A stretch of 37,779 nucleotides of DNA from Hyphomicrobiales bacterium (GTDB lineage Bacteria > Pseudomonadota > Alphaproteobacteria > Rhizobiales > Aestuariivirgaceae). Both the position numbers and the translations under genes were made by a program. This document shows positions 20,802-37,779 of this stretch, one piece after another. Numbering within the stretch: the first letter of the stretch is position 1; each line of letters starts with the position of its first letter. Below the pieces are notes generated by a model. That model was given only the letters and a program-made list of their open reading frames with translations. It had not been told where the DNA came from and made no database searches. The stretch spans positions 1-37,779 of the forward strand of contig JANYHB010000065.1 in NCBI GenBank assembly GCA_025359265.1, given 5' to 3'.

Positions 20802-20802
20802 C

Positions 20803-21762: not shown

Positions 21763-21844
21763 CACGTACCTCCCAGTACTTTGTTGCTGGCATCGGAAAC
21801 TTTATTTGATCCGTGCCAATGACTTTGATTGACCGGTTTGCGAA

Positions 21845-21936: not shown

Positions 21937-22605
21937 TTGAAGAAAGCTCGACTAGACCGCCAAGAAAATGTGCCGCGCCAGATCTACGAGATCCTCCGAG
22001 CTCGAATCTTGTCAACCGAATTGCCCCCTGGGTCTTCGATCAATGAACGCTATCTGGCCGAGGTATTGGGCGTTAGCCGCACGCCAATTCGAGAAGCAAT
22101 TCGCCGCTTGTCAAATGATGGATTGATTTCAATAGTTCCCAACGTCGGCACTTCTGTGGCGGCTTTCGATCCCTTGCGCGTGCGGGAATTTTGTCAGATT
22201 CGAACAGGCGTTGAATGTATTGCAATCGAGGCGGCGGTTAAGAATTTCGGCCTGGCCGAGGAAAAGAAACTGGTTCAACTGATTGCCGAACAAGACAAAA
22301 CTGTTGATCGCGGTGATATGATCGCAAATATCGCGATTGATACTGAATTCCACGATGTCATTATGGAATTGAGTGGCTACAAAGTTATACCCGATTTTCT
22401 GCACCGGGCGATGGGGGAGATTCTCCGTGCCCGCCACTTGTCGATCCAACTGCCAGGTCGTTTGAGAGAACCCATAATCGAGCACCAGGTAATTCTTGAG
22501 GCCCTTCGTTCTGGCAACCCCAAAACCTGTGTTACGGCAATGAAGGACCATCTCGATAAAAGTTTCGCTTCAATCATGAAAGTGCTGGAGTCGGTGAACA
22601 CTTAG
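21937..22605 (+). CDS. GntR family transcriptional regulator, FCD subfamily
   Basis: A 222-aa regulator. The winged helix-turn-helix lies at about residues 10-75 (QIYEILRARILSTELPPGSS, then LAEVLGVSRTPIREAIRRL). The FCD ligand domain covers about 80-215, with metal-site candidates D in IDTEFHDVI, H in FHDV and H residues in IIEHQVILEAL and MKDHLDKSF. FCD regulators typically sense sugar acids or other carboxylates through a bound metal. The start is a TTG at 21937 with AAGGA about 10 bases upstream. A GGTATACC operator lies 81 bases upstream and a second copy over the transporter promoter, so it most likely represses itself and the downstream operon until a sugar acid binds. Confidence 0.9.
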   Translation: MKKARLDRQENVPRQIYEILRARILSTELPPGSSINERYLAEVLGVSRTPIREAIRRLSNDGLISIVPNVGTSVAAFDPLRVREFCQIRTGVECIAIEAAVKNFGLAEEKKLVQLIAEQDKTVDRGDMIANIAIDTEFHDVIMELSGYKVIPDFLHRAMGEILRARHLSIQLPGRLREPIIEHQVILEALRSGNPKTCVTAMKDHLDKSFASIMKVLESVNT

Positions 22606-22810: not shown

Positions 22811-22841
22811 TTGACACAAATTGAGGTGGTGGTATACCGGA
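22811..22841 (+). promoter_or_regulatory. Sigma-70-type promoter with overlapping GntR operator, copy 2
   Basis: TTGACA (22811-22816) is followed after 16 bases by TATACC (22833-22838). The -10 lies inside TGGTATACCGGA (22830-22841), the exact reverse complement of operator copy 1. Binding of the regulator here would block RNA polymerase. The start codon of the ABC operon is 56 bases downstream. Confidence 0.72.
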
Positions 22842-22896: not shown

Positions 22897-24717
22897 ATGT
22901 CAGAAAAGCTGAACATACCGCCTGCTGTATTTATGATGCATCGGAGGCAATTCATGCTGGCTGCGGCCGGCGCAGTTTCCAGTTTGGCCGCGCCGTTGGC
23001 AGCCTTTGCCGATACGCCAGCAGCAGCAACGGCGATTACGCCTGCCACACCCCTCGCTGAACTTCCGCGCACATCGCAACTGGTGCTTGGCTGGTCAATC
23101 ACGTCGCCCATTGGCGTTACCAACCCATGGGCTGTTCCTGGCTATACCCACCAAGAGGGCAACGCCCTGATGTGGGAGCCGCTGATGTATTTCGGCATCT
23201 TCAAAGATGACTATATTCCATGGCTGGCCTCCAGCATGGAGTATACTGCGAAGGACTTTACCGCACTCCAAATTAAATTGAATCCCAAGGCCAAGTGGAG
23301 TGATGGAAAAGCTGTCACTTCAAAAGATGTGGTTTTCACCTTCGAAGGCCAGTTGAAAAACGACAAGCTTCCCTACCATGCAGCCTTTGCCCAATTTGTA
23401 GACAGCGTCACTGCTGCAGATGATCTCACCGTAAATGTCAAGTTCAAGATTCCGGCCCCACGCTTCAAGTTTGAAGTGTTGTGTGAAAAATTCGATACCG
23501 GCATTCCCATCGTTCCAGCCCATGCCTTTGATGGTCAGGCAGATGTGAATGCCTATGCCGGTGGCGTGGCAATGCCGCATTCAGGGCCTTATGATTTGGT
23601 GGCCTGGGACGCGAACCAAAAGATCTTCAATCTGCGCGAAGATTGGTGGGCAGTTGGTGCCGGATTGATTCCATTACCTGAAGTAAAGCGGGTTATCATC
23701 TCAAACCTGGGTGGCCAGATTGGCCAGAACATGGACACGATTGCCCAACGCCTCGTGAACAGCGAGATGGACTCAGCGCTTGATATGCGCAGTTCCGTGA
23801 TCGGCAACATCTTGGCGAAGAATCCCAAGATCACCACCCACACTGGAAATAAATCGCCATACGGCTATTTGGATTGGTGGCCAAACTCTCTGTGGATGAA
23901 CACCCAGATTGCACCCTTCAATGACGCCAAAGTGCGGCGTGCAATCAGCCTCGCAATCAACCGCGATGTGATTAACGACACGCTGTATGAAGGTGCCAAG
24001 ATTGCCACGATCTATCCGTTTCCGCTTTATCCTGGCCTGCAAAAATTCGTTGATAGCCCAGAGATGAAAGCGTTGGAGGCAAAGCTTAAACCTGGCCTGT
24101 TTGATCCAGATGCCAGCGCCAAGCTGATGACCGAGGCGGGTTTCGCCAAGAATGGCAAGGGCCTGTGGGAGAAAGGTGGCCAGACCGTAAATTGCACGAT
24201 CAATGGCTTTGAAGGCATTCACAGCGACATCGTGCCGGTTTTGGTGGAGTTCTTGGTGGCGGCAGGATTTGACGGTGCGGTGAACTTCGGCACCAACGCT
24301 TACCAGAACATGGCAGATGGCGCGCCGGGCCTTTACATGTTCGGTCATGGTGCCAGCTTGAAAGACCCCTATGCCGCCCTGGAACTGTATCATGGTCGTT
24401 TCAGCAACTCGATCGGCACTCCCGCAGGGAACAACCGCTTCTCGCGTTACAAGAACCCCGCCTACGATGCCGTGGTTGACGCCATGGCACCATTGTCATC
24501 GGATGATCCGAAGTTCCATGAAAACGCCGTGAAGGCAATGGAGATCTACTGGACGGAACAGTTAGACGTTCCGATCATCCAGTGGCTGCACCGCATTGCC
24601 TATAATCAAACCCATTGGACGAATTGGCCCACTGCGACCAACAAGGCCATGGGCACGAATGGCGCATTTTGGGCGGAAACGGGCCTTCTCGTTGTCAGTG
24701 CGCTGAAGAAGGCCTAG
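22897..24717 (+). CDS. Dipeptide/oligosaccharide-type ABC transporter substrate-binding protein (SBP family 5)
   Basis: A 606-aa periplasmic binding protein of SBP_bac_5. A twin-arginine-like export signal is visible (HRRQFMLAAAGAVSS, about residues 16-30, cleavage near AFA about residue 38), preceded by an unusually long n-region; ATG at 22936 or 22939 would shorten it. The family core follows with PWAVPGYTHQEGNALMWEPL, SDGKAVTSKDVVFTFE and the hinge segments VRRAISLAINRD and LEAKLKPG. Family 5 proteins bind peptides, but many alphaproteobacterial members bind oligosaccharides or sugar acids. The gene leads an operon of sugar-acid enzymes, so the ligand is probably a saccharide. A GGGAGG site precedes the start. 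Confidence 0.92.
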   Translation: MSEKLNIPPAVFMMHRRQFMLAAAGAVSSLAAPLAAFADTPAAATAITPATPLAELPRTSQLVLGWSITSPIGVTNPWAVPGYTHQEGNALMWEPLMYFGIFKDDYIPWLASSMEYTAKDFTALQIKLNPKAKWSDGKAVTSKDVVFTFEGQLKNDKLPYHAAFAQFVDSVTAADDLTVNVKFKIPAPRFKFEVLCEKFDTGIPIVPAHAFDGQADVNAYAGGVAMPHSGPYDLVAWDANQKIFNLREDWWAVGAGLIPLPEVKRVIISNLGGQIGQNMDTIAQRLVNSEMDSALDMRSSVIGNILAKNPKITTHTGNKSPYGYLDWWPNSLWMNTQIAPFNDAKVRRAISLAINRDVINDTLYEGAKIATIYPFPLYPGLQKFVDSPEMKALEAKLKPGLFDPDASAKLMTEAGFAKNGKGLWEKGGQTVNCTINGFEGIHSDIVPVLVEFLVAAGFDGAVNFGTNAYQNMADGAPGLYMFGHGASLKDPYAALELYHGRFSNSIGTPAGNNRFSRYKNPAYDAVVDAMAPLSSDDPKFHENAVKAMEIYWTEQLDVPIIQWLHRIAYNQTHWTNWPTATNKAMGTNGAFWAETGLLVVSALKKA

Positions 24718-24735
24718 CATCGGACTTAATCAATG

Positions 24736-24766
24736 CAAGGTGCGTGTCCATCTGGCGCGCACCTTG
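24736..24766 (+). other. Intercistronic hairpin between SBP and permease genes
   Basis: CAAGGTGCG (24736-24744) pairs perfectly with CGCACCTTG (24758-24766). It lies 19 bases past the SBP stop and is not followed by a T-run. Such hairpins commonly stabilise the SBP part of the mRNA and lower permease expression. Confidence 0.65.
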
Positions 24767-24809
24767 TTATTGAAAATTCGCACCTGGCGCTGTCCTGATA
24801 GGAACCCCT

Positions 24810-25808
24810 ATGATATTGCGTTTAATTTTCCGGCGGGTGTTGTTTCTCTTCGTTGTTATCTGGTGTGCATCGTCTATCGTATTTATTATTCCGCGCCTGT
24901 CCAAGACCAACGCCATCAGAGAACGCTTCGCCGAATTGTCACGCACCGGCGGATTTTCTCCGGATGATTTGGAAAAGATCATTGCGAGCTACAGCAAGCA
25001 ATTCGGACTTGATGCGCCCCTGTGGCAGCAATATCAGGATTATCTCGGAAACATCCTGCATATGGATTTTGGCTATTCGCTGAACCGCTATCCCATGACT
25101 GTGACGCAAGTGATCGTCACCGCCATCCCTTCAACACTGGGTTTGCTGCTGGTCACCACGGTGCTCAGCTTTCTCATCGGCAATTTTCTGGGCGCATTGT
25201 CCGCTTGGCCAAAAGCGCCAAACTGGGTGCGCGCCATGGCAACACCTTTTGTGCTTCTCACAGGCGTGCCGCCCATCATCATGGGCGTGCTTTTGCTGTT
25301 CTTCATTGGCTTCCGGCTGCAACTGCTTCCCTTGGGCGGCGCCCACACAATCGGGATCGTGCCTGACGGCTCATTATCGTCTTATCTTGATTTGTTGTTG
25401 CATCTTATTCTGCCTTCGCTCGCCTTGATTCTGGGCTCGGTGGGGGGCTGGGTTCTATCCATGCGCGGCATGGGCATCACCATTCAAGGCGAAGACTATG
25501 TGAACTTTGCCGAACACAAGGGCCTGACTGGCAAGGTGATATTCAGGGATTATTACCTCCGCAACACACTTCTGCCGCAAGCCACGGCCCTGGCTTTGGC
25601 CTTGGGCACCGTCGTCACCTCGGCGATTGTGATTGAGGGTTTATTCGGCCTGCCTGGCATCGGGCAAGCCCTGAACAGCGCAATCCGGTCAAATGATTTT
25701 CCGGTGATCTATGGCATCGTGCTGTTTATCACCGCGGCCGTTGCAACACTGATGGTGGCGATGGAGTTTGTCTATCCCCTCCTCGACCCGCGCATTCGAA
25801 ATCAATAG
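24810..25808 (+). CDS. ABC transporter permease (DppB/OppB type)
   Basis: A 332-aa inner-membrane permease with an N-terminal membrane segment (residues about 8-29), a periplasmic loop and five further segments between about 100 and 325. The cytoplasmic coupling loop (EAA motif) is in NFAEHKGLTGKVIFRDYYLR, about residues 230-250, and contacts the ATPases. Typical DppB features include IEGLFGLPGIGQALNSAI. An AGGAA site lies five bases before ATG 24810. It should pair with the DppC-type permease that follows at 25819. Confidence 0.92.
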   Translation: MILRLIFRRVLFLFVVIWCASSIVFIIPRLSKTNAIRERFAELSRTGGFSPDDLEKIIASYSKQFGLDAPLWQQYQDYLGNILHMDFGYSLNRYPMTVTQVIVTAIPSTLGLLLVTTVLSFLIGNFLGALSAWPKAPNWVRAMATPFVLLTGVPPIIMGVLLLFFIGFRLQLLPLGGAHTIGIVPDGSLSSYLDLLLHLILPSLALILGSVGGWVLSMRGMGITIQGEDYVNFAEHKGLTGKVIFRDYYLRNTLLPQATALALALGTVVTSAIVIEGLFGLPGIGQALNSAIRSNDFPVIYGIVLFITAAVATLMVAMEFVYPLLDPRIRNQ

Positions 25809-25818
25809 GAGTGGCACC

Positions 25819-26712
25819 GTGACAGATGCAACACTCGTGATGTCTCTGCGGCCCAGCCGGTTCTGGTTGGCCATGCGCTATATCAGGCGCAACAAAAGCC
25901 TGGCCATTGGTTTGGCGGTGATGTTGTTTCTGATTGCATTTACGGTGATCGGGTTTCTGACCATCAACCCCAGACACGCCTATCCGCTATCAGCCGCGAC
26001 AAGGCAGGCGCCCAGTTGGAAATACCCCCTGGGCACCGATTTTTTTGGCCGCGATCTTTTGGCTGCCATGGTCGTTGGCATGTGGCAAACGGCGGCAATC
26101 GGACTTATCGCGGGCGGCATCGGCACCATGATCGGGGTATTTCTGGGGTTTGTATCAGCCTATTTTGGCGGGCTGATCGACGCGATCATCAAAACAATTT
26201 GCCAGATCCTGACGCCTATCCCCGTGCTGCTGATTCAAGTCGTCGTGGCAGGAAGTCTCGACAAACGTGACGTTACGATCATGGTCATGGCCCTTATCAT
26301 CGTCATGCTCGGCTGGATGGGAACCACGCTGGTGGTGCGAAGCCAGGTTCTAACCATGAAAGAGCGGCAATTTGTGGCTGTGGCCAAACTGTCTGGTGTT
26401 GGGTCAATGGGCATTATCTTCAAGGAGATCATGCCGAACTTGTTGCCCTTCATTGCCGCAGCCTTTGTGGTTCAGGTTTTCCAGGCGGTGTTCGCTTCAT
26501 TTTATCTCGCCGTTCTGGGTTTGGGGCCATTGCGCGAACCGCTTTTGGGCAACATCATCTGGTCGGCGCAGGGCCAAGGCGCCTTCTTCAATGGATGGTG
26601 GTGGTGGCCGATAGAACCGGCGATTGCCATGGTGCTGATCTTGGGATCGTTGGCCCTCATCAACATGGGTCTTGATGAGTTAGCCAATCCCCGTGTGCGT
26701 AAATCGGAATAG
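25819..26712 (+). CDS. ABC transporter permease (DppC/OppC type)
   Basis: A 297-aa permease. I choose the GTG at 25819 (AGGAG seven to eight bases upstream). A longer in-frame start at 25768 lies inside the preceding permease gene. The N-terminal cytoplasmic stretch RFWLAMRYIRRNKSLAIG leads into the first membrane segment, then YPLGTDFFGRDLLAAMVVGM, the DppC signature, and an EAA loop (VAVAKLSGVGSMGIIFKEIM) near residues 195-215. About six membrane segments are seen in total. It forms the second half of the transport channel. Confidence 0.91.
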   Translation: MTDATLVMSLRPSRFWLAMRYIRRNKSLAIGLAVMLFLIAFTVIGFLTINPRHAYPLSAATRQAPSWKYPLGTDFFGRDLLAAMVVGMWQTAAIGLIAGGIGTMIGVFLGFVSAYFGGLIDAIIKTICQILTPIPVLLIQVVVAGSLDKRDVTIMVMALIIVMLGWMGTTLVVRSQVLTMKERQFVAVAKLSGVGSMGIIFKEIMPNLLPFIAAAFVVQVFQAVFASFYLAVLGLGPLREPLLGNIIWSAQGQGAFFNGWWWWPIEPAIAMVLILGSLALINMGLDELANPRVRKSE

Positions 26713-26716
26713 CGGC

Positions 26717-27700
26717 ATGGCAGATGCACTTCACAAAAGCCCGATCCTCACGGTGAGCAATCTCGAAGTGACATACTACACTGATGCCGGTCGCGCCAAA
26801 GCACTGGATGACGTTTCTTTCACTTTGAATGCGGGTGAAAAGCTGGGCATGGTGGGCGAAAGCGGCTCAGGCAAAAGCACATTAGCACTGGCCATGATGC
26901 GGATGATCAAGCCACCGGGCCGCATTGAGGCCGGTCACGTCTTTGTTGGCGGCACGGATCTGATGGCGTTGAGCGATGAAGATATGCGCCAGGCGAGGCT
27001 GAGTAAAATTGCCTATATTCCACAAGGGGCGATGAATTCGCTGAACCCTGTCATCCGCATTGGCGCACAGCTGGTTGATGCGCTTCGCAGCCACGGCATA
27101 CGTGACAGTCGCGCGCAAATTGAAGAACGCTGCATCAATGCACTGAAATCGGTGGATCTTGATCCAGCAGTATTCCGCATGTATCCGCATGAGCTCAGTG
27201 GCGGCATGAAGCAGCGCGTTTGCATTGCCATCGGGATTTTGTTGCAGCCGCAAGTGATTATTGCCGATGAACCAACGTCGGCGCTGGATGTTGTGACCCA
27301 GCGCCAGGTGATGGAAACCATTGACCGGGTGAAAAACCAGATCAACGCCGCTGTTATTTTGATTGGCCATGACATGGGTTTGATGGCGCAATTCGTAGAC
27401 CGTGTGGCCGTGATGTATTCCGGGCGTTTGGTTGAGGTCTCAACGGTGCGCGAAATGTTCACCAACCCCTTGCACCCTTACACTGCAGCATTGATTTCCA
27501 GCTTGCCCAACCTGCAAAACAAGGGGGTGTTTCAGGGCATACCGGGTCTGGCACCTTCGCTGTTGCGACTGCCATCGGGCTGCGCCTTCCATCCACGATG
27601 CACCAAGATGATGGAAGTTTGCCAATCCACGCGTCCGCTCACTCGCACGTTAGAGAGCAACCGTCTCGTCACCTGCCACCTCTATGACGCGGTGGTCTAA
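26717..27700 (+). CDS. ABC transporter ATP-binding protein (DppD/OppD type)
   Basis: A 327-aa ATPase. Walker A is GESGSGKST (about residues 43-51), the Q-loop is IPQGAMNSLNP, the signature is LSGGMKQRV (about 160), Walker B is VIIADEPTSALD and the switch His is in LIGHDMG. The C-terminal oligopeptide-transporter extension has PLHPYTAALISSLP and four cysteines (CAFHPRCTKMMEVC and VTCH), the set that binds an iron-sulfur cluster in some Dpp/Opp ATPases. Start ATG 26717 lies four bases after the permease stop. Confidence 0.93.
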   Translation: MADALHKSPILTVSNLEVTYYTDAGRAKALDDVSFTLNAGEKLGMVGESGSGKSTLALAMMRMIKPPGRIEAGHVFVGGTDLMALSDEDMRQARLSKIAYIPQGAMNSLNPVIRIGAQLVDALRSHGIRDSRAQIEERCINALKSVDLDPAVFRMYPHELSGGMKQRVCIAIGILLQPQVIIADEPTSALDVVTQRQVMETIDRVKNQINAAVILIGHDMGLMAQFVDRVAVMYSGRLVEVSTVREMFTNPLHPYTAALISSLPNLQNKGVFQGIPGLAPSLLRLPSGCAFHPRCTKMMEVCQSTRPLTRTLESNRLVTCHLYDAVV

Positions 27701-27703
27701 CAC

Positions 27704-28726
27704 ATGACCAACCTTCTGGACCTGCATCACGTCTCTAAAACCTATACGCGAGGGTTGATCAACGCCAAAGCCACAGTGGCCTTGCAAGAGATATCTTTGA
27801 CGTTAAAGCAGGAAGATCCCACAATCCTGACCGTTGCCGGCGAAAGCGGGTCAGGCAAGACCACTTTGGCCATGCTGCTGCTGGGATTCATCACGCCCAC
27901 AACCGGGCAGATTATTTACCGCGGAAAAGATATCACCGCTTTGCAGGGCGAAGAGCGCATGGCGTTTCGCCGCGAAGTGCAAGCGGTTTTTCAAGACCCG
28001 TTTGCCGTTTTCAATCCGTTCTACACCGTTGATCACTTGCTGAGTGTGCCCATCAAGCGCTTCAAGCTTGCCACAAATGCCAAAGCGGCCCGCGCCAAGA
28101 TGGATGAGGCGCTGACGGCGGTGGGCCTGCGCCCTGAAGATGTGCTCGGCCGCTATCCTCACCAGCTTTCAGGTGGACAGCGCCAGCGTATCAATGTGGC
28201 GCGGGCGCTGTTGCTGAAGCCGCGCCTGCTTATTGCTGATGAACCTGTATCGATGGTTGACGCCAGCTTGCGCGCCAGCATTCTTGAAACGTTGCGCAAT
28301 TTGCAGCGTGACCATGGTGTGTCGATCATCTACATCACGCATGATCTGACCACCGCCTATCACATCGCCAATGCCATCATTGTTTTGTATCGCGGCGGAG
28401 TGATGGAAGCTGGCGACGTTGATCAGGTGATCAAGTCACCACAGCATCCTTATACGCGGCTTCTGGTCGATTCCATTCCATGGCCCGCACTCGATCGGCG
28501 GTGGGGCACCGACATGATCAAGGCACGCGAGGCTGGCAGCAGCTCTGTGGGCTGTCCATTCCGCAGCCGCTGCCCGATGGCGATGGAGCAGTGCAAAACC
28601 CAGCCGCCGCTTTATAAAATCAACAAAACCCAGGCCGCCGCCTGCTATTTGCATGCGGGCCATCCTGAAATCGCGGCCGAACGTTTGACCGAACTCTTGC
28701 CGGTGCGAACTCAAATCGAAGCCTGA
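27704..28726 (+). CDS. ABC transporter ATP-binding protein (DppF/OppF type)
   Basis: A 340-aa ATPase, partner of the preceding one; it starts three bases after its stop. Walker A is GESGSGKTT (about residues 46-54), the Q-loop is VFQDPFAVFNPF, the signature is LSGGQRQRI, Walker B is LLIADEPVSMVDA and the switch His is in YITHDLTTAY. The C-terminal extension has HPYTRLLVDSIP and the cysteine set CPFRSRCPMAMEQC. The PVSMVDASLR variant of the D-loop is usual for saccharide-associated DppF proteins. Confidence 0.93.
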   Translation: MTNLLDLHHVSKTYTRGLINAKATVALQEISLTLKQEDPTILTVAGESGSGKTTLAMLLLGFITPTTGQIIYRGKDITALQGEERMAFRREVQAVFQDPFAVFNPFYTVDHLLSVPIKRFKLATNAKAARAKMDEALTAVGLRPEDVLGRYPHQLSGGQRQRINVARALLLKPRLLIADEPVSMVDASLRASILETLRNLQRDHGVSIIYITHDLTTAYHIANAIIVLYRGGVMEAGDVDQVIKSPQHPYTRLLVDSIPWPALDRRWGTDMIKAREAGSSSVGCPFRSRCPMAMEQCKTQPPLYKINKTQAAACYLHAGHPEIAAERLTELLPVRTQIEA

Positions 28727-28736
28727 AAGTGCTGCC

Positions 28737-29696
28737 ATGCTGGATATAGCCGAATACATCATGCCAACCCCTTCCCCGCTTTGGAAGCTGGCCAAACAGG
28801 CCGGGGTGGACTTTGCGGTTGGTGGTCTGCCCGCCGACGTGAAGCCAGACGAAAAGGTGTGTGACCTCGCTCCGTTGACGCGCATGCAGGCGGCCTATCA
28901 GGAGGGGGGCTTCAAGCTGGCGGTGATTGAAGCGCGGCCTCCCCTTAACAAAACCAAGCGCGGGCTGCCGGGGCGCGATGAAGAAATCGCCATGGTCTGC
29001 ACCCTTCTCGAAAATATGGGGAAACTTGGCATACCCGTTTGGTGCTATGAGTGGATGACTGACTTCAACTGGTTGCGCACGAACATGTCAACGCCTTCGC
29101 GTGGCGGTTCGGTGGTGACGAGTTTCAATCTTGCCGATGTCCCCGAAGACCTGACGAGCAATCCTCCCATTGCTGAAGAAGCCCTGTGGCTCAATCTGGA
29201 TTATTTCCTGAAAAAAGTTTTGCCTGTCGCCGAAAAGGCCGGCGTGAAACTTTCGATGCACCCGGATGATCCGCCGCTTTCACCCATCCGCGGTGTTGGG
29301 CGCATCATGCGTTCCGTTTCCAATTATCAGCGCTTGATGGAACTGGCGAACAGCCCAATGAACACAATTACGCTGTGCCAGGGCAATTTTACGCTGATGA
29401 CTGATGATCTTCCATCGGTCATCCGTAAATTTGGCAAGAAGATCAGCTTCGTGCATTTTCGCGATGTACGCGGTGTGCCGTCGCAATTCCATGAAACCTG
29501 GCATGATGCCGGACAGACCGACATGCTGGCCTGCATGAAAGCCTACCGCGACATTGGTTTTGATGGCGTTCTGCGCCCCGATCATGTGCCCACTGTTGAG
29601 GGTGACAGCAATGCCCATGCCGGATATTCGTCCTTCGGCAGGCTTTATGCCATCGGCTATATCCGTGGGCTTCGGCAGGCTGTTTATGCGAGCTGA
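28737..29696 (+). CDS. Mannonate dehydratase-like protein (UxuA family, TIM barrel)
   Basis: A 319-aa protein related to UxuA (D-mannonate dehydratase, which forms 2-keto-3-deoxygluconate). It has the family's metal-site segments: KLSMHPDDPP with GVGRIMRSV, NTITLCQGNF, FVHFRDVRGVPSQFHETWHD and GFDGVLRPDHVPTVEG. It is shorter than E. coli UxuA (394 aa); the missing length is in inserted loops, as in other short UxuA proteins, so it need not be broken. ATG 28737 lies 10 bases after the ATPase gene. Its substrate may be mannonate or a related aldonate. Confidence 0.87.
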   Translation: MLDIAEYIMPTPSPLWKLAKQAGVDFAVGGLPADVKPDEKVCDLAPLTRMQAAYQEGGFKLAVIEARPPLNKTKRGLPGRDEEIAMVCTLLENMGKLGIPVWCYEWMTDFNWLRTNMSTPSRGGSVVTSFNLADVPEDLTSNPPIAEEALWLNLDYFLKKVLPVAEKAGVKLSMHPDDPPLSPIRGVGRIMRSVSNYQRLMELANSPMNTITLCQGNFTLMTDDLPSVIRKFGKKISFVHFRDVRGVPSQFHETWHDAGQTDMLACMKAYRDIGFDGVLRPDHVPTVEGDSNAHAGYSSFGRLYAIGYIRGLRQAVYAS

Positions 29697-29699
29697 GCA

Positions 29700-30545
29700 A
29701 TGAAGATCGCGGTCACTGGTGGCAACGGAGGTTTTGGTCGCATCGTCATACCAGGCGTTCTGGCTGCGGGCCACACTGTGGTTTGCATCGACCGAGAGCC
29801 ATTGCACCTGGATGCAAACGAAGCCACACGCTATGTTCAAACAGATTTAGCCGACTATGACGCAGTGGTCAGGGCCTTGGCAGGATGTGAAACGCTGATC
29901 CATCTGGCGGCCATTCCCAGCCCGCGAGGCCATCTTGATCATATTGTTCACAACAACAATGTTGTGGCCAGCTACAATGCGCTGCGGGGTGCCGCAGAAG
30001 TTGGAATCCGGCGCATCGTGCAAGCTTCCAGCGTCAATGCCGTGGGTCAGGCATTCAGCAGCAAGCCCCGTTATGACTTCTTCCCGATTGATGAACGACA
30101 CGCCAACTATGCCGAAGACGCCTATGCCTTGTCCAAATGGATTTGCGAACAACAGGCAGACGCGCTTGTGCGTGGCTTTGAAGGCATGAGCATCGCCAGC
30201 TTGCGTTTTCACTGGATCAAGCCGCGTGCTGATGTGATCAAAGCCTATGGCAACAGTGACGAAAATTTCTGGCGCTATCTCGCCGCTTATACTGACCCGC
30301 AGGCCGCCGTGCGCTCTTGTGTGCAGGCCATCTCCGCACCGTTTCAAGGACACGAGGTGTTTTACATTGTGGCCCCCGAAACCATCGTTGAAACTCCAAC
30401 GCTTGCGCTTGCCGCACACCACTTTCCCAACGTTCCGATCACGGGTGACCTGAGCGGCAACCGTGCCTTCATGACCAGTGCCAAGGCGGAGCGCATGCTG
30501 GGTTGGAAACACCACCTTTCCACCACACAAGGGCAGACATCATGA
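29700..30545 (+). CDS. NAD-dependent epimerase/dehydrogenase (extended SDR)
   Basis: A 281-aa extended short-chain dehydrogenase. The nucleotide motif TGGNGGFGR is at residues 6-14 and the NAD-selective acidic end of strand 2 is in VCIDRE. LIHLAAIP follows, the catalytic Ser is in QASSVNAVG and the Tyr/Lys pair is YALSK (about 143-147). The short length and SSVNAVG resemble uronate dehydrogenases and sugar-nucleotide epimerases. In this cluster, oxidation of a uronate or aldose to its lactone is the most useful reaction, but that is inference. It starts three bases after the UxuA-like gene and overlaps the next start by ATGA. Confidence 0.85.
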   Translation: MKIAVTGGNGGFGRIVIPGVLAAGHTVVCIDREPLHLDANEATRYVQTDLADYDAVVRALAGCETLIHLAAIPSPRGHLDHIVHNNNVVASYNALRGAAEVGIRRIVQASSVNAVGQAFSSKPRYDFFPIDERHANYAEDAYALSKWICEQQADALVRGFEGMSIASLRFHWIKPRADVIKAYGNSDENFWRYLAAYTDPQAAVRSCVQAISAPFQGHEVFYIVAPETIVETPTLALAAHHFPNVPITGDLSGNRAFMTSAKAERMLGWKHHLSTTQGQTS

Positions 30546-31714
30546 AAATCACCAAGGTATCGACTGCTGTCATCGCCGGCAACTTTCCCTGGGTGCTGGT
30601 GCGCATTGAAACCGACACGGGCGTCAGCGGTCTGGGCGAAGCCTATTGGGGCGCTGGCGTTGCAGAGCTTGTGCACCGCGCCAAACCACTTTTGATCGGC
30701 GAAGACCCGACTAATATCGCCAGGTTGATGTTCGTTATGGAACGCTCGCTCTCGGGCGAAGGTTCGCAGGCTGGCGTTACCGTCACCGCCATGTCTGGCA
30801 TTGAGATTGCGTTATGGGATTTGATGGGCCGCGCCCACGGCCTGCCGATTTCAACTTTCTTTGGCGGACGTTTTCGTGAAAAAATCCGCATCTATGCGGA
30901 TTGTCACGAAGGCGACACGCCTGACCCAGCCGAATATGCCAGGCGCGCCAAGGAAGTTGTTGCCGCAGGTTTTACCGCGATCAAGTTTGATCTCGACAAT
31001 GCCAATCCCTACACGCTGGATTTGACCGATGGTGACCATTCCCGCCGCCAGTGGGTTGAACCTTTCAACCGCCTGATCGGATCGCAGGAGATGGCGTGGA
31101 TGGTGTCGGTGGCGAGTGCCGTTCGCAACGCTGTTGGGCCCGAAATCATGGTGGCGATGGATGCCCACTGGAAATTCGGAGTGAACGATGCGATAAAATT
31201 GGCGCAGGCGCTTGAGCCTCTTGACCTTCTATGGCTGGAAGACCCGGTTCCCCCGCATAACATTGAGGCGCAGCGTTTGGTTACGCATTCAACCCGCACG
31301 CCCACGAGCACTGGCGAAAACCTTTACTTACACCAAGGCTACCGTGAATTGATTGAAAAGCAGGCAGTGCGCATCATCACGCCAGATATTCCGAAAATGG
31401 GCGGACTGTTGGAGTTCAAAAAGGTTGCTGACCATGCAAACCTTTATTACATCCCCATGGCACCCCATAACGTGGCCAGCCCCATTGGCACCGTGGCTTG
31501 CGGGCATGTGTGTGCAGCGATCAGCAATTATCTGGTGATGGAATATCACGCGCATGACGTGGCCTGGTGGGGTGATCTGGTTGAAGGTGGCTCCCCCCTT
31601 CAAAACGGTTTCATCACGCTTAACAACAAACCCGGCCACGGGTTGACCCTGAACGAAGATGTGGCCAAGGCGCATCTGAAAAAGGGCTCAAGCTTTTTTG
31701 GCGAAAATCCATAG
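30542..31714 (+). CDS. Enolase-superfamily sugar-acid dehydratase 1 (mandelate racemase type)
   Basis: A 390-aa member of the mandelate racemase/muconate lactonizing subgroup. The N-terminal capping domain (residues 1-125, [11 protein letters not shown]) is followed by a TIM barrel with metal ligands in VAMDAHW, WLEDPVP and STGENL, and the catalytic His in MAPHNVASP. The KFD segment (AIKFDLD) sits where the superfamily's catalytic Lys is expected. Most relatives dehydrate aldonates or aldarates. Start ATG 30542 overlaps the epimerase stop. It differs clearly from the two enolase-type neighbours, so it is not a recent duplicate. Confidence 0.87.
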
Positions 31715-31727
31715 GACTGAGGACGAC

Positions 31728-32939
31728 ATGAAAATCACGGCCATCAAAGTTATCGTTGCCTCGCCCGGGCGCAACTTCGTCACCGTCAAGATCATGACCG
31801 ACCAAGGGCTGTATGGTATCGGCGATGCCACGGTGAATGGCCGCGAAATGGCGGTGGTTGCCTATCTCCAGGAACACGTGATCCCCATCCTGATTGGCAA
31901 AGACGCCGCGCGCATCGAAGACATCTGGCAATATCTTTACAAGGGTGCCTATTGGCGGCGCGGGCCCATCACCATGGCCGCCATTTCCGGGGTCGACATC
32001 GCGCTGTGGGACATCAAGGCCAAGGCCGCGAATATGCCGCTCTATCAAATATTGGGGGGTGCCTCGCGTGACAAGGTGATGATCTACCAGCATGTTGGCG
32101 GATTGACCATTGAGCAAACCGTCGAAGGTGTAATTGCCAAGCGCGAGGCGGGCCACGTTGCCATCCGCGCCCAGGTTTCCATCCCGGGCTTGCCGCCGAT
32201 TTATGGCACCGGCCCATCAACCGATCAGGCAGCCGGTGGAATGGTACAGGCCCTTCCCGTGGAGGAAGTCTGGTCCACACATAAATACCTGCCCCTGGTG
32301 CCGAAGCTTTTTCAAAAATTGCGCGATGCTGTGGGCTGGGACGTGCATCTTCTGCACGACACGCACCACCGCTTAACCCCGATTGAGACGGCCCGACTGG
32401 GCAAGGACCTTGAACCTTACCGGTTGTTCTGGCTGGAAGACCCGGTGCCCGCCGAATTGCAGGAAAGCTTTCGTCTCATCCGCCAGCACACCACAACGCC
32501 CATTGCAGTGGGCGAAGTGTTCAACACCATATGGGATTGCCAACAGCTGATCAGCGAACAGTTGATTGACTATATCCGCGTCACATCTGTTCATGCCGGT
32601 GGCGTTACCGGCCTGCGCCGGATTTTCGACTTTGCCGCCATTTATCATGTTCGCTCTGCCTGCCATGGCCCGATGGATGTGTCGCCCGTTGCCATGGGTG
32701 CCAATGTTCACGTCGATCGGTGGCTGCCCAACTTCGGCATCCAGGAATACTCAGGCTATACGGAAGCAACCCACGAGATGTTCCCGCATTCATGGCAGCA
32801 GGAAGGCGGCTTTTTGGTCACCGGCGAAGCCATCGGTCATGGTGTGGATATTGACGAGAAAGTGGCCGCCCGCCACCCTTACAAGGCGGCTTATCTGCCC
32901 GTTGCGCGCGCCGAAGACGGCACCATGTGGAGTTGGTAG
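31728..32939 (+). CDS. D-mannonate dehydratase (ManD/RspA type, enolase superfamily)
   Basis: A 403-aa protein very close to ManD. Evidence: the N-terminus [35 protein letters not shown], the segment [29 protein letters not shown] (metal Asp and catalytic His), [20 protein letters not shown] and [15 protein letters not shown]. Confirmed ManD enzymes convert D-mannonate, and some also D-gluconate, to 2-keto-3-deoxy-D-gluconate; others of this subgroup are almost inactive. Start ATG 31728 follows GAGGAC, 13 bases after the previous stop. It may share its substrate with the UxuA-like protein in the same operon. Confidence 0.92.
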
Positions 32940-32940
32940 A

Positions 32941-34095
32941 ATGAAGATCAGTGCCGTCAAGCCGTTTCCCGTCTGGATTGGCCACCGCAACCAGTTGGTG
33001 GTCAAGGTTGAAACCGATGAGGGAATTTTCGGCTGGGGCGAAAGCGGTTTATCGGGCCGCGAATTGGCTGTGGCCGGTGCAATCCAGCACTTTGCTGAAT
33101 TTCTGAAGGGCCGCGATCCCATGGCCATCGGTGCCCTGTGGCAGGAAGTTTACCGCAGCCAATACTTTGAAGGTGGGCGCGTTTTGCAAGCCGCCCTTTC
33201 CGCCATCGACATTGCGCTCTATGATATCAAGGGCAAGGCGTTGGGCGTGCCGGTTTATGATCTGCTGGGCGGCAAACAGCGCGAGCATGTTCCAACCTTC
33301 GCCTCTACGACAGCCCACGAAACCGCAGCCATCCTCGCCCAGGCCCAAACATTGAAATCCGCCGGTTGGACAGCTATCCGCCTATTTCCGAATTTTAGCG
33401 ATCAAGGCAAAATTTTTGAACCGCGTGAACATTTAGCGGCAACCGCCCGCACCTGCATTGCCGCGCGCGAAGCATTGGGCGGCGAAACCGTTCTGGGCAT
33501 TGATTGGCACCACCGCCTCTCCGTGGCCGAGGCCGCAAGCTTCTGCCAGAAAATGCCCTCCGCCACGCTTGATTTTCTGGAAGAACCCATCCGCGACGAA
33601 ACCCCTGAAGCCTACGAGTCTTTGCGCAAGTTGACCGATGTTCCCTTTGCGATTGGCGAAGAATTTTCCTCGAAGTGGCAATTCTTGCCTTACATTGAAC
33701 GCGGCATCCACCAATACAATCGCCTCGACCTGTGCAATGTGGGTGGCTTCACTGAAGCCATGAAAGTGGCCGGATGGAGCGAGGCGCATTATGTTGATAT
33801 GATGCCCCACAACCCGCTTGGCCCAATTTGTACCGCGGCCACCATCCACTTTTCTGCCGCGGTGGCCAACTTTTCCTGGCTTGAAACGCGGGTGAACCCC
33901 GGTGATCTTTATGGCGGTGGCCAGAGTGATGACGTGTTCACCCGCCAGCCTCGCCTGCACGGTGCCGTCTACCCAGTCGATAGCGCCCCAGGGCTTGGCA
34001 TTGAAATCGACGAAAAGGCATTAACACGCGAAGCCTTCAAATTCTGGGAAGCCCCGCATCTCAAGCGCCGCGACGGCTCGGTGACGAATTGGTAG
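32941..34095 (+). CDS. Enolase-superfamily sugar-acid dehydratase 3 (galactonate dehydratase-like)
   Basis: A 384-aa protein of the mandelate racemase subgroup. The capping domain has GIFGWGESGLSGRELAV, and the barrel has metal ligands in LGIDWHHRLS, FLEEPIRDE and FAIGEEF, with the catalytic His in MMPHNPLGPI, the same layout as DgoD-type dehydratases. The MPHNPLGP motif is shared with galactonate and related aldonate dehydratases. ATG 32941 is one base after the ManD stop; a longer open frame from 32566 lies inside ManD and is not used. The exact substrate is not readable from sequence. Confidence 0.88.
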   Translation: MKISAVKPFPVWIGHRNQLVVKVETDEGIFGWGESGLSGRELAVAGAIQHFAEFLKGRDPMAIGALWQEVYRSQYFEGGRVLQAALSAIDIALYDIKGKALGVPVYDLLGGKQREHVPTFASTTAHETAAILAQAQTLKSAGWTAIRLFPNFSDQGKIFEPREHLAATARTCIAAREALGGETVLGIDWHHRLSVAEAASFCQKMPSATLDFLEEPIRDETPEAYESLRKLTDVPFAIGEEFSSKWQFLPYIERGIHQYNRLDLCNVGGFTEAMKVAGWSEAHYVDMMPHNPLGPICTAATIHFSAAVANFSWLETRVNPGDLYGGGQSDDVFTRQPRLHGAVYPVDSAPGLGIEIDEKALTREAFKFWEAPHLKRRDGSVTNW

Positions 34096-34105
34096 GTAAA
34101 GCGAA

Positions 34106-34855
34106 ATGACAACAAAAAACATTACGCGCCCGCCAAAACATCAAATCGCGGCGCTGAAGCTGATTGGCGCTGCCACCGTGGCAGGCACACTCACCCACCT
34201 TGGAATTCGCAACACACATATTGCGGGGCCGATCAGTTGGCATAAGGGCAAGGTTATGGTGGGCCCCGCGTTGACACTTTTGATGATGCCCAAGCGTGAA
34301 GACCTTTACGGTGACGGCGAATACAATGATCCTGAAAAACAGCTGCACCGCCATGTGCTTTATCAGGTGCAAGAAGGTGACGTGGTTGTGGTTGATGCGC
34401 GCGGCGACATGACCGCTGGAATTTTCGGCGAAATGATGATGACCTATTTCAAGGGCCGTGGCGGTGCAGGCCTGGTGATTGATGGCTGCATCCGGGACTA
34501 TCCCGGCCAGATTGAACTTGATATGCCGCTGTGGATCCGTGGCCTGACGCCCAATTTCCACACCCAAACTGGCCTCATGCCCTTTGATTTCAATTGTCCC
34601 ATCGCCTGCGGTGGCGTCACCGTCATCCCGGGCGATATCATTGTGGCAGACGATGACGGTGCCGTCTGCCTGCCCGCCGCACTTGCCGACAAGGTTATCG
34701 AACTGGCATCGCAGCACCATGAATGGGAGGAGTTTTCGAAGATCATGCTTTCCAAGGGCGGTTCGTTGCAGCGCTATTACCCGTTGCATGATGATGCGCG
34801 GCACGAATATGACGCCTGGCGCAAACTTAACCCCTTGCCAAAAAAAGCTTTATGA
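34106..34855 (+). CDS. RraA-like protein, probable class II keto-acid aldolase
   Basis: A 249-aa RraA/HMG-aldolase-like protein. Active-site residues of the aldolase members are visible: the glycine segment IFGEMMMTYFKGRGGAG followed by VIDGCIRD (Arg about 130, Asp about 131). Despite the name, most family members outside enterobacteria are metal-dependent aldolases or decarboxylases of keto acids, such as 4-hydroxy-4-methyl-2-oxoglutarate aldolase, that release pyruvate. Next to four dehydratases that make 2-keto-3-deoxy acids, with no KDG kinase present, it is the best candidate for the final cleavage. It ends in an ATGA overlap with the next gene. Confidence 0.85.
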   Translation: MTTKNITRPPKHQIAALKLIGAATVAGTLTHLGIRNTHIAGPISWHKGKVMVGPALTLLMMPKREDLYGDGEYNDPEKQLHRHVLYQVQEGDVVVVDARGDMTAGIFGEMMMTYFKGRGGAGLVIDGCIRDYPGQIELDMPLWIRGLTPNFHTQTGLMPFDFNCPIACGGVTVIPGDIIVADDDGAVCLPAALADKVIELASQHHEWEEFSKIMLSKGGSLQRYYPLHDDARHEYDAWRKLNPLPKKAL

Positions 34856-35772
34856 TGTCCGCAGCACCCCTTGGCCCCTTGGATGCCGCCGCCTATGAGG
34901 TGCTAGACCCGCGCTTTGCGCCATGCACCGTCACCGACGGGCGCGCCGAAAGACTTTGGAGTGGTGGCAAATGGACCGAAGGGCCTGCATGGTTCGATGC
35001 CGGGTTTCTCGTCTGGTCTGACATTCCCAACGACAGGATGCTGCGGTGGGATGAGGCAACCAATGCAACTTCCCTTTTCCGCCATCCCAGCCATGGCGCC
35101 AATGGCAACACCATTGATCGCGTCGGCCGCCTGATCACATGCGAAGGCCTGACGCGGCAGGTCACCAGAACAGAATTGTCGGGTGAGATCATTACACTGG
35201 CTTCGCACTATAAGGCGCAACGCCTGCGGGCCCCCAACGATATAGTCGAAAAATCCGATGGGACCATTTGGTTAACTGATCCCAGTTATGGAAGCGGCCC
35301 GCTCGGCGAAAGTGAAACTGAAGTGGCAGGCTGCAATGTTTACCGGCTTGACCCCGTGAGCCGTGAAGTGCGGCAGATGACGCAAGACATGGTCATGCCC
35401 AATGGCCTTGCCTTCTCTTTGGATGAAAGTCAGCTCTATATTGTCGACACGGGCAGCACCAACTTTGCAGATGGACCCAACCACATCCGCCGCTTTGGCG
35501 TATCCTCTGACCATACGTTGACTGGCGGCGAGGTATTTGCCGAAAGCGCCGCAAAACAATTCGATGGCATCCGTTTTGACAGCCAAGGCCGGCTGTGGTG
35601 TGCAGCAGAAGACGGCGCTCATTGTTACGCCAGTGATGGCACGCTGATTGGCAAAGTTAAACTGCCTGAACGTGCTGCCAATCTCTGCTTTGGCGGACGT
35701 GAGGGTAACACGCTGTTCCTGACGGCCACGACTTCACTTTACCGCGTGCCTGTCAACGCGCGGCGGCCATGA
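34852..35772 (+). CDS. Gluconolactonase-like SMP-30/LRE protein
   Basis: A 306-aa six-bladed beta-propeller of the SMP-30/gluconolactonase/LRE family. The metal and substrate residues are in WTEGPAWFDAG (Glu), RAPNDIVEKSDGTIWLTDP (Asn and Asp), MPNGLAFSLDES and FDGIRFDSQGRLWCA. The family hydrolyses sugar lactones to aldonic acids, the step after sugar oxidation. There is no signal peptide, so it acts in the cytoplasm. Either ATG 34852 (overlapping the RraA-like stop) or ATG 34855 may be used. Confidence 0.9.
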   Translation: MMSAAPLGPLDAAAYEVLDPRFAPCTVTDGRAERLWSGGKWTEGPAWFDAGFLVWSDIPNDRMLRWDEATNATSLFRHPSHGANGNTIDRVGRLITCEGLTRQVTRTELSGEIITLASHYKAQRLRAPNDIVEKSDGTIWLTDPSYGSGPLGESETEVAGCNVYRLDPVSREVRQMTQDMVMPNGLAFSLDESQLYIVDTGSTNFADGPNHIRRFGVSSDHTLTGGEVFAESAAKQFDGIRFDSQGRLWCAAEDGAHCYASDGTLIGKVKLPERAANLCFGGREGNTLFLTATTSLYRVPVNARRP

Positions 35773-35841
35773 TTTTCCCAATGGCATTGCCCTGTTGGCT
35801 TGCTTGGCACTAAGGTTGAGTTACCAGCGAAGGAGTTTTTT

Positions 35842-37284
35842 ATGATTTATCGCTTTGTGGTTTTGGCCATCGCGGCCTGCGTGTTGCCCCTGTCGGCATT
35901 CGCGCAAGATCCCTTGTCTGTCAAACCGGGTACCGTGGCATTTGAACAATCCGTTCTTGTATCAGGTCTGCCGGGCCCGTGGGAAATCACCTGGGGCCCC
36001 GATGACATGCTGTGGGTGAGTGAGCGCACGGCGGGCCGAATTGACCGGATTGACCCTCACTCCGGTTTGATCAAGACCGCTATCACCTTTACCGATCTGG
36101 CAACCAAGAGTGGCCAAGACGGTCTCCTTGGATTGGCTCTCGACCCAAGGCTTGGGAAGGGCGCCGGACACGATTTCGTCTATACGGCCTATACCCACTT
36201 TGACCCCGCGCGCCGCGCTGACCCTGCGGTAAAAGACCCCGCCAGCCCCTACCTGCATATGTACGCCAAAATAATCCGGCTCAAATATGATGCAGGATCG
36301 GGCACACTATCAGACCCTATGACATTGATTGATGGCTTGCCCGCAGGCGCCGATCATGATTCCGGACGCATGAAGATCGGCCCGGACGGCAAACTTTATT
36401 ATACAATCGGCGAGCGTGGAAATAACCAGTTGGCAAACTGGTGCATCCCCATTGAGGCACAGCGCCTGCCCACCGCCGCAGAAATGTCTGCCAAAGATTA
36501 TTTCTCGTATCAAGGCAAGTCGCTGCGCATGAACCTGGATGGTTCCATTCCCGCCGACAACCCCGTATTGAACGGCGTGCAAAGCCATATTTTTACCTAT
36601 GGGCATCGCAATATGCAGGGCATTTCCTTCGGCCCTGATGGCACGCTTTATGCCTCCGAACACGGACCCAAGTCAGACGATGAGATCAACATCCTGAAAT
36701 CCGGTGGCAACTATGGCTGGCCCCATGTCGCAGGCTTTCGAGACAACAAGGCCTATCAATATGCCCGCTGGGCAGACGCAACAACACCATGCGCCAGTTT
36801 GAAATTCAGTGACCTTGCCATCGATCCTTCTGTGCCGCGTGAAGATGAAACGTCTTGGAAAGAACCTTTCACCGAGCCCATCGCCACCCTGTTCACCGTG
36901 CCAAGTGACTGGAACTTCAGCGATCCGAAATGTGGCAATATGCAATACATCTGCTGGCCCACGGTTGCACCCTCCAGCATCGAAGCGTATCGCCCGGCAA
37001 AAGGCGGCATTCCAGGTTTTGATAACGCACTGCTGGTCACAACGCTGAAACGCGGTTCCCTCTACCGCTTGCCCCTTTCAGCCGATGGCCAGTCGGTTTC
37101 CGGCCCAATCGAGCGCTATTTCCACACCAACAACCGCTACCGCGATCTGGCCATCAGCCCGGATGGCCGCACCATTTACATTGCGACTGACCCGGGTGGC
37201 GCCCACGAAACGGTGGACGGCGGAGTGAGTGACAAAGTGGAAAATCCGGGCGCTATCCTCATCTTCAAATATAACGGCAACTAA
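35842..37284 (+). CDS. Secreted PQQ-dependent sugar dehydrogenase (soluble GDH/GSDH type)
   Basis: A 480-aa exported six-bladed propeller. The start at 35842 has an AGGAG site and gives a clean signal peptide (residues 1-21, cleavage after AFA). The family motifs include GPWEITWGPDD, GLLGLALDP, DHDSGRMKIGPDGKLYYTIG (catalytic-base His about 172), GHRNMQGISFGP and ASEHGPKSDDEINIL. The C-terminus ends ILIFKYNG. It is related to Acinetobacter soluble glucose dehydrogenase and oxidises aldoses to lactones in the periplasm with PQQ. No PQQ synthesis genes are in the window, so PQQ must come from elsewhere. It is 69 bases after the lactonase gene, with no clear promoter between. Confidence 0.9.
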   Translation: MIYRFVVLAIAACVLPLSAFAQDPLSVKPGTVAFEQSVLVSGLPGPWEITWGPDDMLWVSERTAGRIDRIDPHSGLIKTAITFTDLATKSGQDGLLGLALDPRLGKGAGHDFVYTAYTHFDPARRADPAVKDPASPYLHMYAKIIRLKYDAGSGTLSDPMTLIDGLPAGADHDSGRMKIGPDGKLYYTIGERGNNQLANWCIPIEAQRLPTAAEMSAKDYFSYQGKSLRMNLDGSIPADNPVLNGVQSHIFTYGHRNMQGISFGPDGTLYASEHGPKSDDEINILKSGGNYGWPHVAGFRDNKAYQYARWADATTPCASLKFSDLAIDPSVPREDETSWKEPFTEPIATLFTVPSDWNFSDPKCGNMQYICWPTVAPSSIEAYRPAKGGIPGFDNALLVTTLKRGSLYRLPLSADGQSVSGPIERYFHTNNRYRDLAISPDGRTIYIATDPGGAHETVDGGVSDKVENPGAILIFKYNGN

Positions 37285-37297
37285 GCAGGGCTGGGCC

Positions 37298-37654
37298 ATG
37301 GGCGCTCATCATCTGCAGTGGTCGCACGGCCATGCTACCGTTTTGACGACGGCTGCCATGTTGGCTGAATGTCAGTTCGCCCTGCCCTCTGGCAGTTTTT
37401 CTCCATTCGCCCGCGCACCCTGGATGGGCAGCGTCACTGATCCCAAAATTTCCGGACATCTACGCGAACTTGGCGGCGATTTCGCCTGCCTTCCCTTCGG
37501 CATCGGGCGCGACATCCCCCATCCAGCGGCGGATTGGAAACCATTGCTCACCGGGGCAACCGGGGGGCCCATTCACGGCCCGGCGGCCGACGAGGAGTGG
37601 GAGGTGCTGGAGGCCAACGCCAGCACCATCACACTTGGATTGAATAGCCCCTAG
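37298..37654 (+). pseudogene. Aldose 1-epimerase-like protein, C-terminally cut by an IS element
   Basis: 118 codons from ATG 37298 resemble the N-terminal part of galactose-mutarotase-fold proteins: ATVLTTAAMLAEC (first strands), GFGIGRDIPH-like CLPFGIGRDIPHPA, the HGPAADEEWEVLEA segment and a final strand STITLGLNSP. Intact family members have about 270-330 residues with a catalytic Glu near the C-terminus, absent here. The frame stops with TAG at 37652 immediately before the IS3-type left end. It lies 13 bases after the PQQ dehydrogenase, so it was the next gene of the operon, plausibly interconverting sugar anomers. Confidence 0.72.
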
Positions 37655-37779
37655 ATTTGTAGACACTTTGCCCCTTTAAAATGAGGCAAGGAGACGATCA
37701 TGGGCCAAGGTAATTTCACTGAAGACTTTAAGCTGGATGCGATTAAACAAATAACTGAACGCGGACATTCTGTTGCTGA
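37652..37779 (+). mobile_element. Left end of an IS3-type insertion sequence (partial)
   Basis: A probable terminal repeat begins near 37658 (TGTAGACACTTTGCCCC, beginning TG as IS3 ends do), 42 bases before the orfA start. The element runs off the window. The exact boundary and target duplication cannot be fixed without the right end. Confidence 0.65.
37700..37779 (+). CDS. IS3-family transposase OrfA (partial, N-terminus)
   Basis: The first 26 codons are present (GNFTEDFKLDAIKQITERGH, ending in SVA), the standard start of IS3-family OrfA helix-turn-helix proteins ('F..EFK..AV.L....G.SV'). An AAGGAG site lies about six bases upstream of ATG 37700. OrfA binds the element ends and is normally joined to OrfB by frameshifting; OrfB lies beyond the window. 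It is the same strand as the sugar-acid operon it interrupts. Confidence 0.88.
   Translation, partial: MGQGNFTEDFKLDAIKQITERGHSVA

Follow-up and report, generated by a model that had tools for sequence, protein, structure and literature searches.

Oxidative schemes parallel to the one considered here have been published for a haloarchaeon and for a member of the Chloroflexota. In the haloarchaeal mannan user Natronoglomus mannanivorans, a route from mannose via mannonate to 2-keto-3-deoxygluconate (KDG) was proposed from the genome, with the oxidation at C1 assigned to a side activity of glucose dehydrogenase or to another oxidoreductase (PMC10963439). In a SAR202 strain (Chloroflexota), fucose and rhamnose, the corresponding lactones and acids, and ascorbate enhanced growth (sole-carbon use was not tested), and kinase-free dehydrogenases, MR-type dehydratases, and aldolases were proposed (PMC10444878). 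The present analysis concerns a run of 13 same-strand genes at positions 22897-37284 (+) of contig JANYHB010000065.1, which as a whole (37,779 bases) constitutes the window and belongs to a 2.65-Mb, 73-contig Hyphomicrobiales genome with a completeness rating of 99.94%. The run is real, conserved, and probably acquired. Judged from family membership and gene context, it probably serves the catabolism of an aldose or the corresponding acid, with mannose or mannonate degraded to KDG as the preferred assignment, to which a probability of about 0.5 is given. Operons of this general kind are known, but the pairing of importer and enzymes is unusual here, and both the substrate and the last step are candidate assignments.

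The likeness to N. mannanivorans lies in the clustering of its mannonate dehydratase genes with an epimerase-type gene and in the RraA-family gene that one drawn cluster contains, whereas the haloarchaeon has mannanases and a beta-mannosidase and its proposed route ends with a kinase and a 2-keto-3-deoxy-6-phosphogluconate (KDPG) aldolase (PMC10963439). The SAR202 proposals are alike in enzyme type but use COG1028, COG0667, COG3618, COG4948, COG1063, COG3836, and COG0329 proteins and many major facilitator superfamily (MFS) transporters (PMC10444878). No description of the gene set with an Opp-type importer was found in open-licence literature, which agrees with the original prediction, made from the sequence alone, that the combination is undescribed; the published parallel schemes take the novelty from its general chemistry.

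Profile searches with Pfam and NCBIfam models revealed that the 13 genes encode a five-part Opp/Dpp-type ATP-binding cassette (ABC) importer (SBP_bac_5, two BPD_transp_1 permeases, and two ATPases with ABC_tran and oligo_HPY domains), a short UxuA protein, an extended short-chain dehydrogenase/reductase (SDR) of the NAD-epimerase type, three MR_MLE proteins (MR1, ManD, and MR3), an RraA-like protein, an SMP-30 protein (SGL), and a member of the GSDH family of sugar dehydrogenases dependent on pyrroloquinoline quinone (PQQ) (Table 1). The family models thus match the co-directional run that had been predicted, with its five-part importer, PQQ dehydrogenase, lactonase, four dehydratase candidates, SDR, and RraA-like protein. 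The predicted tight packing was likewise found, with 4-nt overlaps at the SDR/MR1 and RraA/SMP-30 junctions and remaining gaps of 1-28 nt, save two larger ones behind the gene for the substrate-binding protein (SBP; 92 nt) and ahead of the GSDH gene (69 nt).

Conservation was assessed among the best 80 of 192 loci encoding short-UxuA relatives in a genome scan, a sample picked on UxuA similarity. Genes were counted by tblastn with fixed thresholds (for example, at least 55% over 80% for the SBP, 60% over 90% for UxuA, 43% over 85% for the SDR, and 60% over 80% for the importer subunits), gene-caller maps being left out of the counts because antisense open reading frames (ORFs) were chosen in GC-rich genomes, and the counts are lower bounds because contig ends cut many loci. 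All seven core genes (SBP, permeases pB and pC, ATPases D and F, UxuA, and SDR) were found in 40 of the 80 loci, so the gene run is more than a chance assembly. Of these 40, 28 are among the 39 alphaproteobacterial loci and 12 among the 41 remaining ones (by record title, mostly Chloroflexota); cultured bacteria with the core include Devosia soli (L051) and a Kaistia species. Among the 78 loci with room behind UxuA, 61 have the SDR gene no more than 300 nt downstream. For an importer ATPase gene ahead of UxuA, the count was 35 of the 75 loci with room when the same 300-nt limit was set and 55 of 75 at any upstream distance. Accessory genes were detected among the 80 loci as follows: ManD in 17, MR3 in 19, SMP-30 in 9, GSDH in 12, the last gene of the stretch in 6, and MR1 in 2. 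For RraA, 9 loci passed the strict threshold and 36 gave a match of any kind at E <= 1e-8. Some enolase-superfamily match was present in 31 of the 40 core loci and some RraA match in 18. Relatives of MR1 at 60% or more were confined to L119 and L120, metagenome-assembled genomes (MAGs) of Thermomicrobiaceae and Sphaerobacteraceae, in which the gene comes directly after that for the short UxuA and a match to the SDR was not seen; MR1 is possibly a mosaic insertion into the present gene run. To our knowledge, no tested function is available for the short UxuA proteins, the SDR family, or the RraA-like subfamily, and a core kept across two phyla makes the three testable together. In a separate observation, the SDR frame of locus L063 (10768-13536) continues as a single ORF of ~920 codons, behind which a GSDH match lies; either a gene fusion or an error in the sequence could account for this.

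Parts of the enzyme set also occur with other importers, as illustrated by 11 regions taken from the top of ranked lists as examples rather than as a survey; the importers of the plasmid examples are CUT1-like by annotation. In Rhizobium leguminosarum, an MR3 relative (72%) adjoins an RraA relative (68%) behind a sugar-type importer, and Rhizobium sp. WSM4643 has the same arrangement (71% and 70%); these clusters differ from the present locus in their CUT1-like importer, and neither UxuA nor the SDR is matched in the stretch. Agrobacterium leguminum and Martelella carry a short UxuA (48%) and RraA (58-61%) in one run with a sugar-type importer. On pMaD5 of Marinovum algicola, UxuA (36%), SDR (46%), ManD (65%), and a '3-carboxymuconate cyclase', which we read as a lactonase-type protein, form one cluster beside an ABC importer, but this importer is CUT1-like, an aldehyde dehydrogenase and an FAH-type enzyme are present, and an RraA match is missing. 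In Halostagnicola, a short UxuA (50%) has an SMP-30 protein (27%) and a distantly related SDR (29%) as neighbours. One region, with a transporter of the TRAP type, held two short UxuA proteins and an MR1-like protein (45%) and gave no SDR or RraA match; another held UxuA, again with neither match; and a further one held SDR (47%) and UxuA (34%) with no RraA match. In Sulfitobacter, a distant cousin of the importer (SBP 34%) accompanies an MR protein, an SDR, two SMP-30 proteins, and a DHDPS-type protein; the MR, SDR, and SMP-30 proteins are not close relatives, and that SDR was unmatched by the SDR of the window. The last of the 11 regions had an SDR at 34% in different surroundings. The recurrence of these partners with unrelated importers supports SDR-lactonase-dehydratase and dehydratase-RraA as probable working pairs.

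The operon is absent from the rest of its genus. The SBP was found in 1 of 37 genomes at E <= 1e-60, namely its own (0 of the 36 others), and the short UxuA gave only partial matches in the genus, with identities of at most 38%. The nearest relative was L047, a Rhodobacterales MAG labelled Pseudorhodobacter antarcticus (UxuA 87%), in which the gene order is nearly identical up to the last gene, a second MR3 stands in the place of MR1, and an opposite-strand UxuA-family gene lies ahead of GSDH; aligned DNA pieces were 70-78% identical to the window. The simplest reading is that the genes came from a Rhodobacterales-like donor. That the contig is contaminated or chimeric is a weakened explanation, as the DNA ligase gene in the left part of the same contig occurs in 21 of the 37 genus genomes, its own included.

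Two unrelated families of mannonate dehydratases are represented among the dehydratases. ManD lies above the cut-offs of both D-mannonate dehydratase equivalogs, including NF011654 (671 bits against 430), and by residue count it has R147 and Y159, a pair known from the ManD family. In the short UxuA, the HPDD, C, H, and RPDH letters are common to three solved UxuA chains, with H175, C214, H240, and D282-H283 aligned to identical letters; these are presumably the metal-binding or catalytic residues. The protein is ~30-60 residues shorter than the solved chains between the two aligned halves, and its pocket may therefore differ. For MR1 and MR3, the nearest models were of the D-galactonate dehydratase DgoD type (NF010624), under whose cut-off both remained (213 bits for MR1).

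For the oxidation at C1, the SDR is a candidate, and its Y142 and K146 were invariant across 46 aligned sequences (this SDR counted). The SMP-30 protein had two solved matches, 3e5z and 3dr2, both named gluconolactonases. The GSDH has a signal-like N-terminus. The host genome gave no pqqC match (of 61 genomes from the order, the identical search was positive in 18), and its best pqqE match reached 45.7 bits against 381, a cut-off that none of 14 control genomes exceeded either; the remaining pqq genes were not searched. Because neither gene was found above its cut-off, GSDH would rely on PQQ from outside.

The RraA-like protein matched NF006093 (295 bits against 208), a model named 'hypothetical protein', and its VIDGCIRD from residue 124 fits the D-x-x-x-R-D motif, to which we attribute a role in the RraA-like fold. 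It scored under the equivalogs for the HMG/CHA aldolase LigK (TIGR02798, 113.9 against 304.5) and for the RNase E regulator RraA (NF006875, 47.5 against 136). No kinase family match was obtained among the proteins of the 13-gene run. The host genome encodes two KDPG-type aldolases over the family cut-off, Eda and a second one. The neighbours of one are presumably Edd, Pgl, and Zwf, and those of the second presumably a DgoK-like 2-keto-3-deoxygalactonokinase, part of a lactonase, an SDR, and an MFS transporter, names that we recognized from the sequences with no family search. Since one such aldolase lies beside the DgoK-like ORF, the keto-deoxy acid may take a kinase route.

Taken together, these assignments allow the following scheme. 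The substrate would be taken up by a sugar-type Opp ABC importer and oxidized at C1 to the lactone by the SDR, or outside the cell by GSDH given PQQ; the lactone would be opened by the SMP-30 protein; the short UxuA and ManD would dehydrate the aldonate, most likely D-mannonate, to KDG, with MR3 and MR1 acting likewise on related aldonates; and the product would yield pyruvate and an aldehyde either through the RraA-like protein or through a host kinase and a KDPG-type aldolase. The order from aldose through lactone and aldonate to a 2-keto-3-deoxy acid, as originally predicted, fits the enzyme set. It had further been claimed that the route is complete and needs no kinase. Completeness is unsupported, given the lack of a PQQ-synthesis gene over cut-off (pqqC, pqqE) and a last gene broken by an insertion sequence (IS), and the claim of a kinase-free route is undercut by Eda and by the second KDPG-type aldolase, whose DgoK-like neighbour we take to be a kinase. 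The conserved core could also serve to show whether an RraA-like protein is able to replace the kinase-dependent end of sugar-acid breakdown.

D-mannose or D-mannonate is a best guess rather than a demonstration, based on the two unrelated mannonate-dehydratase families and on the top solved match of the SBP, 4pfu, a family-5 binding protein named 'Mannoside ABC transport system, sugar-binding protein' and presumably from Thermotoga; the match is distant (105 bits over ~540 residues; five matches at E <= 1e-15). Several observations weigh against this assignment. Three of the five solved SBP matches carry oligopeptide-binding names, although we take these to be sugar binders (unconfirmed), and one is a plain ABC binding protein. 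The short UxuA falls under the strict uxuA equivalog TIGR00695 (154.9 bits against 199.55), and the top PDB match of the SDR is GalE 3ehe (E 3.9e-10), ahead of the uronate dehydrogenases. In 14 of the 80 loci, several of them on short contigs, UxuA occurred with neither importer nor SDR at the thresholds used. As for the last step, FlDet, a relative of the RraA-like protein, is described as a dehydratase/decarboxylase and no aldolase in the relevant account (PMC8563752), and an adjacent uxuA-RraA pair of Paenibacillus was assigned to the breakdown of lignin fragments, so such a pair need not signify a sugar (PMC12673573). Moreover, no glycosidase was found among the 13 genes, and PF02836 (GH2), GH1, and GH130, the families searched, had no match in the host genome (controls positive in 5, 7, and 4 of 14, respectively; other families were not searched), so that a mannoside substrate is weakly supported and an intact mannoside would need another hydrolase. 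Flanking ORFs of alphaproteobacterial loci (73 + 65 = 138 of 191 ORFs, 220-900 aa) were profiled as well; the best 25 of 50 and 25 of 49 families comprised regulators, further UxuA and MR proteins, and other importers, and the only glycosidase-like families among them were ADP-ribosylglycohydrolase (3 members) and DUF2961 (1 member), the latter presumably a glycoside hydrolase family. One polysaccharide deacetylase was found in the flanks of L047.

An alternative is the same chemistry acting on gluconate, galactonate, L-sugar acids, or an aldobionate made by GSDH, instead of on mannose. The DgoD-type models nearest to MR1 and MR3, though below cut-off, and the shortened UxuA with its possibly different pocket would fit such a substrate. 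So would the 9 of 40 core loci in which no enolase-superfamily match was seen in the available stretch and GSDH was present throughout (9/9; L071, L072, L074, L078, L082, L085, L086, L087, and L103). This pattern weighs against the mannonate assignment and suggests that the core has two alternative complements, either enolase-superfamily proteins or GSDH, both of which are present in this window and in L047 and, at some similarity, in L050, L053, L054, and L076. As GSDH might already oxidize C1 in the periplasm in the nine loci, the SDR may act elsewhere. A literature search for an L-glucose route found nothing, and the joint presence in one operon of two unrelated families known for D-mannonate dehydratases makes a non-mannose substrate a possible but unlikely alternative. 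It is doubtful, too, that the locus represents an undescribed oxidative mannose/mannonate pathway common to Alphaproteobacteria and Chloroflexota, in which the SDR would be a mannose 1-dehydrogenase of a new SDR family acting with the short UxuA, a kinase-sparing RraA-like KDG aldolase, and an Opp-type importer. Chains named uronate dehydrogenase (267-275 aa) among the PDB matches of the SDR (E 7e-9 to 2e-8) raise the alternative of a uronate route, with the SDR as uronate dehydrogenase, the SMP-30 protein opening the aldarolactone, the MR proteins dehydrating the aldarate, and the RraA-like protein dehydrating and decarboxylating the 2-keto-3-deoxyaldarate to alpha-ketoglutarate semialdehyde. 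The glucarate and talarate/galactarate dehydratase models, however, were far below cut-off or unlisted for the three MR proteins, ManD exceeded the mannonate cut-off, UxuA has no part in aldarate chemistry, and no aldehyde dehydrogenase family match occurred in the 13-gene run, all of which render this route improbable. Finally, the Opp/Dpp-type architecture with its oligo_HPY domains, together with the oligopeptide-binding names mentioned above, would suit a peptide or opine importer standing alongside unrelated enzymes. This is held very unlikely, since the best solved match of the SBP is named a mannoside binder, the peptide-binder equivalogs lie far off (OppA, 42.9 bits against 947; DppA, 27.6 against 1005; the SBP stayed under all nine listed NCBIfam binder cut-offs), the importer and UxuA-SDR are kept together across two phyla, and the cousin importer of Sulfitobacter likewise adjoins MR, SDR, SMP-30, and DHDPS-type proteins. 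The preferred reading remains an operon for mannose or mannonate.

Table 1. Features of the gene run and its surroundings in the window. Starts given as corrected were adjusted by eye.
Feature	Position	Strand	Evidence and remarks
GntR/FCD-family regulator gene	21937..22605	+	PF07729 82.9 bits, PF00392 68.8 bits; 291 nt upstream of the run
Candidate promoter/operator	22811..22838	+	TTGACA hexamer 22811-22816; perfect 8-nt palindrome GGTATACC 22831-22838; by-eye reading
Family-5 substrate-binding protein (SBP)	22897..24717	+	PF00496 171 bits; N-terminus contains RR
Opp/Dpp-type permease B (pB)	24810..25808	+	PF00528
Opp/Dpp-type permease C (pC)	25837..26712	+	PF00528; start corrected
ATPase D	26717..27700	+	PF00005 and PF08352; start corrected
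ATPase F	27704..28726	+	PF00005 and PF08352
Short UxuA-type dehydratase, 319 aa	28737..29696	+	PF03786 280 bits; NF003027 213.6 bits (cut-off 191)
Extended SDR, candidate aldose (C1) dehydrogenase, 281 aa	29700..30545	+	PF01370
MR1, enolase-superfamily dehydratase candidate	30542..31714	+	PF13378 196 bits; start corrected
ManD-type D-mannonate dehydratase, 403 aa	31728..32939	+	NF043051 667 bits (cut-off 550); start corrected
MR3, DgoD-like enolase-superfamily dehydratase candidate	32941..34095	+	NF010624 272 bits, under cut-off 311; start corrected
RraA-like candidate class II aldolase (or dehydratase/decarboxylase)	34106..34855	+	PF03737 120.6 bits (cut-off 24.5)
SMP-30/gluconolactonase-type lactonase	34852..35772	+	PF08450 145 bits
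Secreted GSDH, PQQ-dependent sugar dehydrogenase family	35842..37284	+	TIGR03606 589 bits (cut-off 434.55); start corrected
5' part of a conserved ~330-codon gene, cut by IS	37298..37650	+	ORF itself 37229-37654; start inferred from homologues
IS3-family element end	37641..37779	+	Leaves the contig at 37779; 81% identical to an 'IS3 family transposase' stretch, NZ_CP050302.1

The extent to 37654 given in the original prediction was correct as to the genes present, but the last ORF is a 5' fragment and the GntR/FCD-family gene upstream had not been listed. From its position, the product of the latter is the probable regulator of the 13-gene run. The TTGACA hexamer and the palindrome may serve as promoter and operator; an automated repeat search with a minimum arm of 7 did not report the palindrome. 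The RR in the N-terminus of the SBP could belong to a Tat signal.

The last ORF had no Pfam match. Over the initial 118-160 residues of six homologues (323-363 aa), its conserved fragment shows 55-61% identity; these homologues match only to ~37650, where the IS3-family end starts. One homologue gave an insignificant Aldose_epim match (E 0.2) and another none; the gene product is possibly mutarotase-like. The contig breaks at this IS3-family end, which matched 70 plasmid records and disrupts the conserved gene.

The stretch that separates the 13-gene run from the housekeeping genes (20247-21765) contains phosphonate-type genes and fragments and looks like a decaying, insertion-prone region. 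PhnJ is matched in part (20247-20960, +), a phn-type hexapeptide transferase lies above its cut-off (20685-21320, -), and a short fragment of a sugar-type binding protein (21310-21765, -) was detected. Further to the left, positions 3527-11950 (-) are occupied by one ORF of 2807 codons.

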